Part shown: positions 11,784 through 45,242 of the stretch, piece by piece
Layout: every line of letters begins with the position of its first letter
How positions within the stretch are numbered: position 1 is the first letter of the stretch
Origin: Thiohalorhabdus sp. Cl-TMA
GTDB lineage: Bacteria > Pseudomonadota > Gammaproteobacteria > Thiohalorhabdales > Thiohalorhabdaceae
DNA: 64,000 bases
Reading direction: 5' to 3'
Assembly: GCF_041821045.1 (NCBI RefSeq)
Contig: NZ_JBGUAW010000008.1
Span: forward strand, 186,001-250,000
Position numbers and translations under genes: made by a program
Notes under the pieces: model-generated
Told to the model about the DNA's origin: nothing
What the model saw: the letters and a program-made list of their open reading frames with translations, nothing else
Database searches by the model: none

Positions 11784-13193
11784 TCAGGGAACCTGAATGG
11801 GCAGGAACAGGGCCCCTTGCCCGCGCCGCACCAGCATGGGAACCGCCCGCCCGGAAGGCAGCTCCGAAGCTATCCCGGACATGCTGGCCGGGCCTTTGAC
11901 CGGCTCGTTCCCCAGCTTGAGGATGATATCCCCGCTCCGCACCCCCGCGGAACGGGCCGGATCGCCGGTCACTTCGGCGACCTGGACGCCCTGGCCTTCC
12001 GGGAGTCCGAGCTCCTCCCGGGCCTCGGGAGGAACCGGTCGGACGCGCATACCCAGCACCTCCTGGGGCTGCCCTTCACGAGCCCGCTGGGCCTTTTCCT
12101 GGGAGCCCACGGTGACCTGGATCTTCTGCTGCTCTCCGCCGCGCATCACGGTCAGGGTTACCTCGGTGCCGGGCTTGAGGCGGCCGATCTTGGGCGGCAA
12201 ATCCCCGGAGGTCCGTATCTCCTCGCCGTTCACCGCCACAACGACGTCGCCGGACTGCAGGCCGGCCCCGGCGGCGGGGCTACCCTCCACCACGCGGGCC
12301 ACCAGCGCGCCCACCGGCTTCTTCATGCCGAAGGACTCGGCCAGCTCCGGGGAGACATCCTGTATATAGACGCCGAGCCAGCCCCGCCGGACCTTGCCGT
12401 ACTCCTTGAGCTGCTGCACGGCATCCATGGCGATGTCGATGGGTATGGCGAAGGACAGGCCCATGAAGCCGCCGGACTGGGAGTAGATCTGGGCATTGAT
12501 GCCCACAACCTTGCCGGCCATGCTGAACAGCGGCCCTCCCGAGTTGCCCGGGTTCACGGCCACGTCAGTCTGGATGAAATTGACGTAGTTGTCCGTCGGA
12601 AGGCTGCGCCCCTTGGCGCTGACGATACCCGCGGTCACGCTGTTCTCGAAACCGAACGGCGAGCCGATGGCCACCACCCATTCGCCAACCTCCAGATCGT
12701 CAGGATCCCCGGCCTTGACCGTGGGCAGATCCTGGGCATCCACCTTCAAGAGCGCCACGTCGAGGGCCTCGTCCCTCCCCACCACCTCGGCCTCGAACTG
12801 CTGCCGGTTGGTGAGCTGGACCACGATCTCGGTAGCGTCCTTGATCACGTGGGCATTGGTGACGACGTAGCCGTCGGAGGAAATGATGAAACCGGACCCC
12901 AGGGAGTGGGTTTCAAACTCCCGCTGCGGCGTTTCGCCGAAGAAGCGCCGGAAGAAGTCCTCGAAGGGCGTGCCTTCGAACTGCGGCGGGAGATTGGGCG
13001 CACCCTGCGCCTGGACTTTCTGGGTGGTGCTGATGTTCACCACCGCTTCACCGTGCTCCTCGACGATCTGGGTGAAATCCGGAAGCGCTTCATTCTGTGC
13101 CGCCACGGGAGCCGGGGCAGCCAGCCCCAAGCACAGAAGGAAAAGCCCCCATACGGCCATTCCTGGCAAGCTTTGGAATCGATTCAACGCCAA
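11784..13193 (-). CDS. degQ: Do/DegQ-family periplasmic serine protease
   Basis: The 469-residue protein has an N-terminal signal peptide (cleavage near VAAQ), a trypsin-like domain with the triad His (NAHVIKDA), Asp (DVALLKVD) and Ser (NPGNSGGPL), and two C-terminal PDZ domains. It degrades or refolds damaged envelope proteins. Its place after rseC in the rpoE cluster matches mucD of Pseudomonas. A 45-bp gap separates it from rseC, so co-regulation by sigma-E is likely but a separate promoter cannot be excluded. Confidence 0.94.
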   Translation of the reverse strand: MALNRFQSLPGMAVWGLFLLCLGLAAPAPVAAQNEALPDFTQIVEEHGEAVVNISTTQKVQAQGAPNLPPQFEGTPFEDFFRRFFGETPQREFETHSLGSGFIISSDGYVVTNAHVIKDATEIVVQLTNRQQFEAEVVGRDEALDVALLKVDAQDLPTVKAGDPDDLEVGEWVVAIGSPFGFENSVTAGIVSAKGRSLPTDNYVNFIQTDVAVNPGNSGGPLFSMAGKVVGINAQIYSQSGGFMGLSFAIPIDIAMDAVQQLKEYGKVRRGWLGVYIQDVSPELAESFGMKKPVGALVARVVEGSPAAGAGLQSGDVVVAVNGEEIRTSGDLPPKIGRLKPGTEVTLTVMRGGEQQKIQVTVGSQEKAQRAREGQPQEVLGMRVRPVPPEAREELGLPEGQGVQVAEVTGDPARSAGVRSGDIILKLGNEPVKGPASMSGIASELPSGRAVPMLVRRGQGALFLPIQVP

Positions 13194-13238: not shown

Positions 13239-13751
13239 TCAGGTGCCTATGGCGGGAGCGGACACCTTCTTCGCTTCCGGGGGTCGATTCGCGACGCGCC
13301 GCAGGACCCGGGGACGGTAGCGGGGGTCATCGGCGAACCGGCGCCCGAAGCCCCGCTGCCACAGGAAGCCGCCGCCCAGGCCGGCGAGACCTGCCAGCAA
13401 GGTCAGCACGTCCGCCGCTTCCCGCAGGGCGAGCTGGGCGAGCAGCCATTCCGTCATCCCGGCCGCAGCGAACAGGCCCACCAAGGGGACCAGATAGAGG
13501 GCGACAGAGGCCCGGAGATACCCGCCCTGGGGCAATCCGACCAGCACCCGGTCGCCCGGCTGCAGGGCCAGATCGGTCGGCACCCGCAGCCGGCTGGCGG
13601 TACCGACCCGGGTACCCAGGATGGTCCGACCGGCGCTGCCCCCGCAGCCCCCCGCGGTATGACACTTGCCGCACCCCTCGCCGTCACCGGAAGCCTCCAC
13701 CTCCACCAGCCCGCCTTCCACGGACACCACGGTGGCCTCGGCCTCGACCAT
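13239..13751 (-). CDS. rseC: RseC/MucC-family membrane protein
   Basis: The 170-residue protein has an N-terminal cysteine cluster (GCGKCHTAGGCGG), a beta-rich segment typical of SoxR-reducing factors, and two membrane helices near residues 78-98 and 110-130. RseC relatives act as positive modulators of sigma-E or, in RsxABCDGE systems, in SoxR reduction; its exact role here is not certain. It starts 1 bp into the end of rseB. A basic tail follows the second helix. Confidence 0.85.
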   Translation of the reverse strand: MVEAEATVVSVEGGLVEVEASGDGEGCGKCHTAGGCGGSAGRTILGTRVGTASRLRVPTDLALQPGDRVLVGLPQGGYLRASVALYLVPLVGLFAAAGMTEWLLAQLALREAADVLTLLAGLAGLGGGFLWQRGFGRRFADDPRYRPRVLRRVANRPPEAKKVSAPAIGT

Positions 13752-14734
13752 TATTCGGCCCCCTTGCGCGAGGGGGCGGCGAGGCTTGCGGCGATCCGGC
13801 GGATCGCCGGCCCGGGCAGCTCGCCCAGCAAGGTGATCCGGTATCGGCCCTGGTGCACGGAGCAGGCATGCAGGGCACCCCGCTGCAGGATGTCCCCCGC
13901 CTTGCCGGACAGATCGACATTGCCCTTCACCTTTTCCAGAAACACGGAAAGCGTGGCGAGGCCGTCAGTGAAGAACAGATGCGTACCGCCCGCCTCACCG
14001 GGAACGCCGAAACGGGCGTCCAGGCGGAAGCCGGGAGGCAGTTTCATCCGCGAAAGCACCTCCGGATGATTCCCCTCCTCGAGCGCCCGGCGCTCCAGGT
14101 GGCGCGCCGCCTCGGGCACCTTCATGCGGAGGTCTTCCTCATCCAAAGAACTGTTGGGCGAGACCACCGCGAACATGAAAGTCTCCATCACCCGGCCGTC
14201 CTCGGAGAGGATCTCGGTCTGCAGCGGCAGATTATTGGAAACATCCCGCCACACCCGGTAGGTGAAGCGGTGGTCGTCCTGAGCACGGAACTCCACCGCG
14301 CGGGCCTGGCGCCCGGCCACACGGCCGGTGGGCCCGGTGGTCAGGCTGTAGTACTTACGGACCCGATCGAGATCCTTCTCCGCCAGCTTGAAGATAGCCG
14401 TACCGCTTCGCCGGGGCCCGGAGATGACCTGACCGATATCCGGATGGTACCGCTTTATCTGGTCATCCTCGCGGACCAGCTCCCGGGCCGGGCCGGTCAG
14501 CATCACCAGGCGCTCCCGGAAGCTTCCGTCCGGACCCCCACGGTGGAAGAGCCGCATGGACTCCACGCCCACGGGCACCCCGTGGACGAGCACGCCCTGG
14601 TAGCTCATCTCCCGGGCGGCCTGGATCATGCGCTTCACTTCGGCCTCGACCTGGCCCTGCTTCGCCTCCGCGATGGAGACCTGAACGGCGGCAAGCAGGA
14701 CGGCGAAGATGGGAAATAAACGCACCGGAGCCAT
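13751..14734 (-). CDS. rseB: Sigma-E regulatory protein RseB/MucB
   Basis: This 327-residue periplasmic protein has an N-terminal signal peptide and the two-domain lipoprotein-like RseB fold. Recognisable pieces are SYQGVLVHG at the start and LGELPGPAIRRIA at the end. It binds the periplasmic part of RseA and protects it from DegS cleavage until LPS or outer-membrane signals release it. The stop and start codons overlap with both rseA and rseC, so the operon is tightly coupled. Confidence 0.9.
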   Translation of the reverse strand: MAPVRLFPIFAVLLAAVQVSIAEAKQGQVEAEVKRMIQAAREMSYQGVLVHGVPVGVESMRLFHRGGPDGSFRERLVMLTGPARELVREDDQIKRYHPDIGQVISGPRRSGTAIFKLAEKDLDRVRKYYSLTTGPTGRVAGRQARAVEFRAQDDHRFTYRVWRDVSNNLPLQTEILSEDGRVMETFMFAVVSPNSSLDEEDLRMKVPEAARHLERRALEEGNHPEVLSRMKLPPGFRLDARFGVPGEAGGTHLFFTDGLATLSVFLEKVKGNVDLSGKAGDILQRGALHACSVHQGRYRITLLGELPGPAIRRIAASLAAPSRKGAE

Positions 14735-15330
14735 CAGCGCTCGTTGACCTCGAGCCTTGTCCGCTGGAACTCGGCCTCGGGGCCGCTGGGTACCAGACTG
14801 GAGTGCTCGGGGAGATAGCGCCGGATGGTGGCCATGTTGTTCTCGGCCCCGGCCCCCGTTTTCATCACAGGGCTTTCAGGGTTTTCCGAGCCGGATTCAG
14901 AGGATTGGGCGATGGTCGGGGAGGGCGAGGAACCGGAACCTGGGGCGGGGCTGAAGGCGGTTTGGGACCAGAACAGTGTACCTGCTACCGCTATGCCGGC
15001 CACGCCGGCGGCCGTGGCCAGCCAGCCCCACTGCGAGGACGGGAAGGAGCCCCGGCTGGAGGAGGGCCGGGTGGGTCCGCCTCCGGGTAAGCTTTCCGGA
15101 CCGGTCCCGGGCCTCTCCTCCGCTATGGCCGCAGCCACACGCTCGCAGAACCCCTCCGGGACAACCACATCGCCTTCCCCGCGCACCAGGGTCCGGGTCG
15201 TATGGAATCGTTCGAATAGGCGGCAGCAATCCCGGCATTCGTTCAGATGTCGAAGGACCGCGTCGCTTTCGCTCTCGCTCAGTTCGCCGTCCACTAGCGC
15301 GGAAACGGCTTCGAAGTCACAGGACCCCAT
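14734..15330 (-). CDS. rseA: RseA-like anti-sigma factor with zinc-finger-like motif
   Basis: The 198-residue product sits between rpoE and rseB, the place of the membrane anti-sigma factor RseA/MucA. One membrane helix lies at about residues 101-118; the rest of the C-terminus would be periplasmic and contact RseB. Unusually, the cytoplasmic N-terminus has Cys4, His28, Cys32 and Cys35 (HLNECRDC), the C/H-x23-H-x3-C-x2-C spacing of zinc-binding anti-sigma factors (zf-HC2). E. coli RseA and Pseudomonas MucA lack this. Zinc binding or redox sensing is an inference. Confidence 0.85.
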   Translation of the reverse strand: MGSCDFEAVSALVDGELSESESDAVLRHLNECRDCCRLFERFHTTRTLVRGEGDVVVPEGFCERVAAAIAEERPGTGPESLPGGGPTRPSSSRGSFPSSQWGWLATAAGVAGIAVAGTLFWSQTAFSPAPGSGSSPSPTIAQSSESGSENPESPVMKTGAGAENNMATIRRYLPEHSSLVPSGPEAEFQRTRLEVNER

Positions 15331-15333
15331 CGG

Positions 15334-15924
15334 CTATTGCTCCTCCTTTTCCTGAGAAAGGGCTTCAAGGGCGTTATTGACGGCCTCACGCGCCCTGAAA
15401 ATACGGGACCGGACTGTCCCGATGGGACAGTCCATGACTTTGGCGATTTCCTCGTAGGTCAGACCGTCAATCTCGCGTAGCGTAAGCGCCGTGCGCAGGT
15501 CGGAGGGAAGCTCCTCGATCACCTGCAGGACCTTCTCGCTCATTTCCTTGGACAGCGTGACATCCTCGGGAGTGCCAACCTCGCGCATCACATCGGCTCC
15601 GCTCATTTGCTCCGCGTCGCTGGCATCGATGTCGGCGTCGGGAGGCCGGCGTCCCTTGGCCACGAGATAATTCTTGGCGGTATTCACGGCGATCCGGTAG
15701 AGCCAGGTATAAAAGGCACTGTCTCCCCGAAACCGGTCGAGGGAGCGATAGGCCTTGATAAAGCTCTCCTGAACGACATCTTCCACCGCAGCAGGGTCGG
15801 AGATGAACCGGCTCACCAAGCCATAAACTTTATGCTGGTATTTGCGGACCAGAAGGTCGAATGCTTGCTGCTCACCACTCTTGACCCGCTCAACCAGCTG
15901 CTGATCGGTTTGACGATCGCCCAT
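15334..15924 (-). CDS. rpoE: RNA polymerase sigma-E factor
   Basis: The 196-residue ECF sigma factor directs envelope stress genes. Region 2 shows KVYGLVSRFISDPAAVEDVVQ with YTWLYRIAVNTAKN, and region 4 shows LREIDGLTYEEIAKVMDCPIGTVRSR. The sequence is close to E. coli RpoE and Pseudomonas AlgU. It heads the rpoE-rseABC-degQ cluster and is divergent from nadB, the classical arrangement. A sigma-E-like promoter lies about 50-80 nt upstream, suggesting autoregulation. Confidence 0.97.
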   Translation of the reverse strand: MGDRQTDQQLVERVKSGEQQAFDLLVRKYQHKVYGLVSRFISDPAAVEDVVQESFIKAYRSLDRFRGDSAFYTWLYRIAVNTAKNYLVAKGRRPPDADIDASDAEQMSGADVMREVGTPEDVTLSKEMSEKVLQVIEELPSDLRTALTLREIDGLTYEEIAKVMDCPIGTVRSRIFRAREAVNNALEALSQEKEEQ

Positions 15925-15975: not shown

Positions 15976-16004
15976 TCAGACACCGGCTGCGTCTGGGAGT
16001 TTCC
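15976..16004 (-). promoter_or_regulatory. Candidate sigma-E-type autoregulatory promoter of rpoE
   Basis: On the minus strand GGAAACT (16004-15998) is followed after 17 nt by TCTGA (15980-15976). This resembles the sigma-E consensus GGAACTT, about 16 nt, TCTGA/TCAAA. It is correctly oriented towards rpoE, whose start is 52 nt downstream. Confidence 0.55.
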
Positions 16005-43890: not shown

Positions 43891-45242
43891 TATTGGAACA
43901 GCCGTTGAATGTCGTTATAGAAAGCGAAGACCATCACCGCGAGCAGCACCATGATTCCGGCCTGCTGCCAGCGGGCCATGGTCTCTTCGTCCAGGGGCCG
44001 GCCGCGCACTCCCTCTATGGCCTGGAACAGCAGGTGCCCGCCGTCCAGCACCGGAATCGGCAGCAGGTTCAGAAAGCCCAGGCTCAGACTGATCATGCCC
44101 AGGAACCAGAGGAATGGCACCAGCCCGGCTTCCGCGGACTGCCCCGCGAACTGCGCGATCGCGATGGGTCCGCCGAGGTTATCGCTTGAGACCGAGCCCG
44201 TCACCATGCGGCCGAGCATCTCCACGGTCAGCCACAGCATCTCGCCCGTCTTCTTGATGCCCTCCACGAGGGCGCCGAGGGGACCGTAGCGCACCGTCAC
44301 CTGGAGATCCGCCGGCAATGGCCGGGGTCGCATGCCGATCTGGCCGACCTTGCCGGAATCCGGCGTGGATACCGCTTCGGGCATCACCGAAAGCGTGCGC
44401 GTCTGGCCGTCGCGCGCCACCTGCACGGAGAGCTTCTCCCCGGGGCTTTCCCGGACCAGGTCCAGGAAGCGCTGCCAGGAAGCCACGGTTTCCCCGTTGA
44501 TGGCCCGAATCCGATCCCCGGCCTGGAGACCCGCCGCGGCGGCCGGCGAATCCGGCACCACCTCGCCAACCACCACTGGCTGGTAGGGCCCCAGGCCCAC
44601 CGCTTTGTACAGGAAGTCCGACTGCAGGTTGCCGCCGCCCACCCCCGTCAGATCCAGGCGCGTCTGCCGGCTGGACCCGCCGTCGGCCACGGTGACTTCA
44701 ACCAATTCCCGGTCCATGGCGGCCTGCATCAGGGCCACCCGGGCCTCGTTCCAGGACTGGACCGGCTGCCCAGCCACCGAGCGGATCTCCTCCCCAACCC
44801 GCAGCTCCGCCTGTGCGGCGGGGGTGGCGGACGCGACGTATCCGATGCGGGGCGTCAGCCCCTGCACCCCGATCAGATAGACCGCCACGAAGACCAGAGC
44901 GGCGAACAGGAAATTCATCACCGGCCCGGCAGCAGCCACCGCCATGCGCTGCGGAACCGGCTTGCGGTTGAAGGCCCGGTGGGCCTCCTCCGGGGCCAGG
45001 TCCGGCTCTTCCCCCGGCACCTCCCCGGCCATCTTCACGTATCCGCCCAGAGGCAGGGCGGCGAGTACGTACTGGACGCCGTCCTTGCCCTTGCGGGTAA
45101 GCAGCGCGGGGCCGAATCCCACCGAGAACTTGAGCACCTTGATGCCCACCCGGCGCGCGACCCAGAAGTGTCCGTACTCGTGGACCGTGATCAGGACCCC
45201 GATGGCCACCACGAACATTAGGAGGGTATGGAGGATGTCCAT
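43890..45242 (-). CDS. rseP: Site-2 protease RseP
   Basis: The 450-residue membrane metalloprotease cuts RseA inside the membrane after DegS, releasing sigma-E. HEYGH near residue 21 binds zinc, with the second motif LNLLPIPVLDGGHLL near the C-terminus. Two PDZ domains lie between the membrane helices. It connects this envelope operon with the rpoE-rse cluster at 14-16 kb. Its stop overlaps the start of bamA by one base. Confidence 0.95.
   Translation of the reverse strand: MDILHTLLMFVVAIGVLITVHEYGHFWVARRVGIKVLKFSVGFGPALLTRKGKDGVQYVLAALPLGGYVKMAGEVPGEEPDLAPEEAHRAFNRKPVPQRMAVAAAGPVMNFLFAALVFVAVYLIGVQGLTPRIGYVASATPAAQAELRVGEEIRSVAGQPVQSWNEARVALMQAAMDRELVEVTVADGGSSRQTRLDLTGVGGGNLQSDFLYKAVGLGPYQPVVVGEVVPDSPAAAAGLQAGDRIRAINGETVASWQRFLDLVRESPGEKLSVQVARDGQTRTLSVMPEAVSTPDSGKVGQIGMRPRPLPADLQVTVRYGPLGALVEGIKKTGEMLWLTVEMLGRMVTGSVSSDNLGGPIAIAQFAGQSAEAGLVPFLWFLGMISLSLGFLNLLPIPVLDGGHLLFQAIEGVRGRPLDEETMARWQQAGIMVLLAVMVFAFYNDIQRLFQ

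Follow-up and report, generated by a model that had tools for sequence, protein, structure and literature searches.

The sigma-E switch of Escherichia coli and Pseudomonas, a textbook example of signalling across a membrane, has a metal-free anti-sigma domain whose relation to zinc-type domains is of interest. The anti-sigma factor RsiW of Bacillus subtilis belongs with a different sigma factor group and is not known to have an RseB partner. According to PMC5358783, RsiW holds its zinc by C3 (loop 1), H30 (helix 2), C34 (loop 3) and C37 (helix 3), and Wu et al. (2020, PMC7406223) describe zinc and non-zinc domains as mixed across the anti-sigma family tree. Here, we analyzed a 64,000-nt stretch of Thiohalorhabdus sp. 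Cl-TMA (NZ_JBGUAW010000008.1, positions 186,001-250,000; the whole stretch is called the window and its genome G000), in which the gene behind rpoE encodes an RseA with four putative zinc ligands, Cys4, His28, Cys32 and Cys35. This protein is a concrete case of such mixing inside the RseA group, and its zinc motif has probably survived from an earlier version of the switch that contained zinc. A search of titles and the beginnings of abstracts found no description of a zinc-type RseA in Gammaproteobacteria, and figure 2 of PMC7406223 could show one. Because this RseA with its putative zinc site exists today, in a lineage that is possibly the sister of all other Gammaproteobacteria, experiments can address whether zinc served as sensor or as brace before it was lost, and whether a single brake can combine proteolysis with thiol sensing.

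The anti-sigma factor and its putative zinc ligands

The open reading frame (ORF) at 14734-15330 on the minus strand, which encodes 198 amino acids, is a true RseA that is assigned to this family by domain and operon and lies outside the NCBIfam RseA equivalog NF008116 (24.9 of the 263 bits needed). The score for the RsrA equivalog, TIGR03988, was also below its threshold (28.8 of 62.5 bits). The gene order on the minus strand is rpoE (15334-15924; TIGR02939, 300.3 bits, cut-off 236.15), rseA, rseB (13751-14734; MucB_RseB, E 1.8e-38, over cut-off), rseC (13239-13751; RseC_MucC, E 5.1e-25, over cut-off) and mucD, which encodes a DegP-like HtrA protease with two PDZ domains (11784-13193; TIGR02037, 509.2 bits, over cut-off). 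Thus, rseA directly follows an rpoE ortholog, its ATG lying three bases past the rpoE stop codon, and is itself followed by rseB and rseC. An earlier sequence-only reading of the window had suggested a hidden Markov model search with zf-HC2 and RseA_N, and both Pfam models scored over cut-off on the same stretch, inside the first 73 residues (RseA_N, 33.3 bits, E 7.5e-8, cut-off 24; zf-HC2, 30.3 bits, E 4.5e-7, cut-off 22.2). The closest solved relatives by sequence were E. coli RseA (1or7, E 0.00095) and RsiW (5wuq, E 0.015).

The four residues were found where the sequence-only reading had placed them, as a CHCC motif of the ZAS type: Cys4 (15319-15321), His28 (15247-15249), Cys32 (15235-15237) and Cys35 (15226-15228), all on the minus strand. 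Cys36 (15223-15225, minus strand) comes directly after Cys35, and a further cysteine is Cys62. It should be noted that the zf-HC2 match was rejected as proof of zinc, because RseA proteins without the motif match the model too. Since 26 of the 115 members of our RseA alignment match zf-HC2 (E <= 0.01) and only 15 of those 26 have Hx3Cx2C, such matches alone should not be counted as zinc fingers. In the sequence, the four ligands are a stronger sign of a zinc site than the zf-HC2 match.

In an AlphaFold model, helices were predicted at residues 5-13, 19-31, 33-49 and 61-71, together with a weak helix at 102-121 and a remainder of low confidence. Block means of the predicted local distance difference test were 92-97 for residues 11-50, the mean for the whole model was 68.4 and the predicted template modelling score was 0.41. 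The four helices make up the cytoplasmic anti-sigma domain (residues 1-72; 15115-15330, minus strand), which was delimited by the model and its fold matches. Cys4 immediately precedes helix 5-13, Cys32 sits between helices 19-31 and 33-49, and these two helices contain His28 and Cys35, respectively, so that Hx3Cx2C spans helices 2 and 3 with an N-terminal cysteine in the element expected of a ZAS domain. In this model of RseA alone, each ligand falls in the element where zinc-bound RsiW has its counterpart, which agrees with the idea that the structure would bring them together. The best full-domain fold match was MucA (8z6g_C; Z 8.3, root mean square deviation 2.4, 71 aligned residues), followed by ChrR (2z2s_F; Z 8.2, 2.1, 52 residues), RslA (3hug; Z 7.7, 4.3, 53 residues) and RsiW (5wuq; Z 6.6, 6.9, 62 residues); Foldseek by itself gave no match to the model at E <= 0.001.

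A likely single membrane helix at residues 102-121 (14968-15027, minus strand) is indicated by the low-confidence model helix and by the hydropathy maximum, which at 1.59 is close to the tenth percentile (1.58) among 318 RseA proteins of Gammaproteobacteria. Behind it lies a presumed periplasmic tail (14734-14967, minus strand) with the YLxxH signature, RYLPEHS in the window; among the 345 RseA loci from Gammaproteobacteria, the broader pattern [YF][LIM]xxH occurs at 210. The Pfam model RseA_C had no match in the window RseA, but only 7 of 115 aligned RseA proteins match it. The sequence-only reading of a putative zinc domain tied to a membrane helix and an RseB partner was supported, the helix as a likely one. 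RseA_N and the rpoE-rseA-rseB-rseC operon are shared with E. coli RseA and Pseudomonas MucA (group AS02), and the likely membrane helix and presumed periplasmic tail would be so too, whereas the four zinc ligands are absent from both. On the other hand, Hx3Cx2C is common to the window RseA, RsrA and RslA, the N-terminal cysteine ligand is as in RsrA, and RslA is also membrane-associated; RsrA differs in being cytoplasmic.

Distribution of the ligands

To describe the distribution within Gammaproteobacteria, RpoE loci were taken from 80 named records and from an even draw of 370 genomes across the class, of which 269 had an RpoE that passed the cut-off. Of the best matches in these genomes, those with E of about 1e-50 or stronger were followed as rpoE orthologs, and 45 of the 47 genomes with low-scoring rpoE were fetched (all but G331 and G228). 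An RseA_N-like ORF could be identified downstream in 329 of 344 distinct RpoE loci and was not found in the other 15. Only two of the 329 contained Hx3Cx2C, namely the window and G001, a second genome of the same genus. Among 325 aligned RpoE-linked domains, 315 had none of the four ligands, eight had one, none had two or three, and these same two had all four. Thus, none of the other 323 domains has more than one ligand, and the statement that enteric and pseudomonad RseA and MucA lack them is correct for the proteins sampled. When 369 genomes of the class were chosen by similarity to RseA, in a draw overlapping the first, 26 loci were newly fetched. No further zinc-type protein turned up in 22 of these, and the script found no domain in the remaining four.

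Between the window and G001, RpoE is 98% identical and its partner RseA 73% (window 14734-15924). Cys4, His28, Cys32, Cys35, Cys36 and Cys62 are all kept in G001, where Ser22 is replaced by Cys22, and the codons of Cys32 (TGC in the window, TGT in G001) and Cys62 differ synonymously. Of the 72 codons of the domain, 43 are identical, 20 differ silently and nine changed the residue; in the presumed periplasmic part, the residue changed at 28 of 71 codons. On the question, raised by the sequence-only reading, whether relatives lack the cysteines, the relative of the same genus keeps them, but relatives elsewhere in the class do not.

From a phylum-wide search of 397 genomes, 25 loci could be aligned. 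All four ligands were present in 13 of them (L152-L178), every one from outside Gammaproteobacteria, in another class of the phylum, and the adjoining RpoE proteins were 47-53% identical to that of the window. These loci share with the window the four ligands and, in all four loci tested (L152, L154, L158 and L161), Pfam matches to RseC and/or HtrA protease domains downstream; 11 of the 13 also have its CxxCC pattern. They differ in that most of the anti-sigma proteins are only 90-132 amino acids long with short tails, several lack a clear membrane helix, and none of the 13 has a match to the window RseB in the 1.3-1.5 kb downstream. In 17 genomes outside the class, MucB_RseB was just over cut-off in G414 (22.9 bits) and below it in G472. 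The same model had no match in five of seven other gammaproteobacterial genomes searched (G160, G253, G204, G094 and G164). Yet at least G160 and G253 have an RseA_N-like ORF behind rpoE.

Origin and function of the zinc motif

The position of the genus was approached by three sets of trees. In a full-search RpoB tree of 24 rows (outgroup, three zinc-type genomes; 4 of 28 RpoB matches, all partial, omitted), 19 other gammaproteobacteria formed a clade excluding the window's genus, with supports of 99/97. For RpoE, 367 domain rows were thinned by RpoE identity to 132, of which 131 are in the tree, and for the comparison of domain identities to 250. When 39 other gammaproteobacteria were held together as one clade in a 49-row RpoE set, the likelihood was 3.3 log units better than in the free search, and this arrangement was not rejected by the approximately unbiased (AU) test (p-AU 0.59). 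A domain tree of 128 rows, from which five Cys/His columns had been removed, put all 13 zinc rows apart from the window's genus on one side of a split and the window plus the non-zinc gammaproteobacteria on the other, with support of 96, and in 43 rows without ligand columns the grouping of the window and other zinc rows against the rest was not rejected either (p-AU 0.66). Long-branch rows were dropped from the 128-row tree and from both AU tests, and each of the latter was run with 8 of these 13 zinc rows and a random subset of the gammaproteobacteria, to which eight chosen ones were added. The two domain splits are compatible and place the window between the two groups, in which case a single loss of the ligands accounts for the data. 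The RpoE and domain trees appear compatible with a place of the window's genus outside the other gammaproteobacteria, it being understood that non-rejection is not proof and that RpoB alone gives positive support.

On this basis, we consider it somewhat probable that the window encodes a true RseA with ancestral zinc ligands, in which zinc is mainly structural and RpoE is freed by intramembrane proteolysis, the ligands having been lost once in the rest of the class. A single zinc bound by Cys4, His28, Cys32 and Cys35 would keep helices 1-3 together in the cytoplasmic domain as it grips RpoE. Envelope stress would relieve RseB, a site-1 protease and RseP would cut RseA, and the freed domain would be degraded, whereupon RpoE would transcribe its own operon. 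As in RsiW, the zinc would be mainly structural; the ligands would go back to a common ancestor with the operons of the other class, and a single loss would have taken place in the stem of all remaining Gammaproteobacteria. The site-2 protease gene, rseP, lies at 43896-45242 of the window (G000:C8:229896-231242, minus strand; TIGR00054, E 6.5e-119, over cut-off). A more tentative reading takes the locus as a transitional sigma-E switch, in which the full RseA-RseB-RseP architecture was built on the zinc domain of a short anti-sigma factor from an rpoE-rseA-rseC-htrA operon; after a single loss of the site, all other members of the class, E. coli and Pseudomonas among them, would have the metal-free domain, and in this genus the same protein could respond to thiol or zinc stress in the cytoplasm as well as to envelope stress. 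In other genomes, too, RseB has been lost or has diverged, and the data do not prove that the parts were simply added step by step.

Several observations weigh against an ancestral, structural site read out by proteolysis. The zinc site of the window RseA is derived from sequence and a model, and Cys4 would permit a disulfide of the RsrA kind. As for the site-1 protease, the DegS cut-off was passed by none of three strong HtrA-type matches in the genome. Only two species in the class sample carry a zinc-type RseA. In a third genome of the genus (G002, 82% complete; locus L405), the end of rpoE is followed by an unrelated ORF with no rseA. Its rpoE fragment is 77% identical over 60 residues, and MucB_RseB had no match in this incomplete genome; conservation of the ligands thus rests on two species, because RseA is missing beside this partial rpoE. 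The basal place of the genus leans on the 24-row RpoB tree, whose stem of 0.44 could be drawn to the outgroup, while the quick, free RpoE tree of 131 rows put the window inside the gammaproteobacteria, weakly (SH-like approximate likelihood ratio test, 81-85). In addition, the anti-sigma domain tree has only 74 columns.

The sequence-only reading had proposed that envelope stress and redox or zinc signals might be integrated. With the CHCC motif as a sensor, oxidation would form a Cys4-Cys35 or Cys32-Cys35 disulfide, zinc would leave and RpoE would be freed without proteolysis, besides the RseB/RseP route. The additional conserved Cys36 and Cys62 would fit such a sensor, as would the redox sensitivity of the membrane-bound RslA reported in PMC2877774. 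However, RsiW, the nearest precedent in function that combines a CHCC motif with intramembrane proteolysis, keeps SigW when oxidised, and the redox-setting residues E39, E40, L45 and E46 of RsrA (both from PMC5358783) correspond to N30, E31, C36 and R37 in the window, with E31 changed to Q in G001. Neisseria MseR also needs its cysteines, yet sigma-E expression was unaltered by oxidants (PMC2893595). In our view, a sensor is unlikely. It is very improbable that the motif is a relic no longer binding metal; although the site is missing from every other relative sampled in the class, the four ligands were kept while other residues of the domain changed and silent changes accumulated.

Transfer of the zinc domain from another lineage, or a new origin of the four ligands on a non-zinc RseA, appears improbable. 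In its favour are the window's place among non-zinc gammaproteobacteria in the free RpoE tree and the closest domain identities outside the genus (0.35-0.37), which mix zinc and non-zinc rows. Against this, the genus branches outside the other gammaproteobacteria by RpoB, and regain needs four specific changes with no two- or three-ligand intermediate among the 325 domains. A transfer from the sampled zinc group of the other class was considered and is disfavoured by the split at 96 in the domain tree without ligand columns. Between retention and regain of the ligands, the free RpoE tree and the RpoB tree are in weak conflict.

The rpoE promoter

A sigma-E-type promoter sequence, GAAACT-N17-TCTGA, lies 5' of rpoE (15976-16003, minus strand) and is kept in G001. 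Because it is conserved 5' of rpoE in both species, it suggests that RpoE may autoregulate its operon. The exact pattern occurs at two sites in G000 and two in G001, the rpoE promoter being one of each pair. The other match in G000 (L435, G000:C7:133677-133705) precedes an ORF that, judged by eye, resembles a secreted M16-type peptidase.
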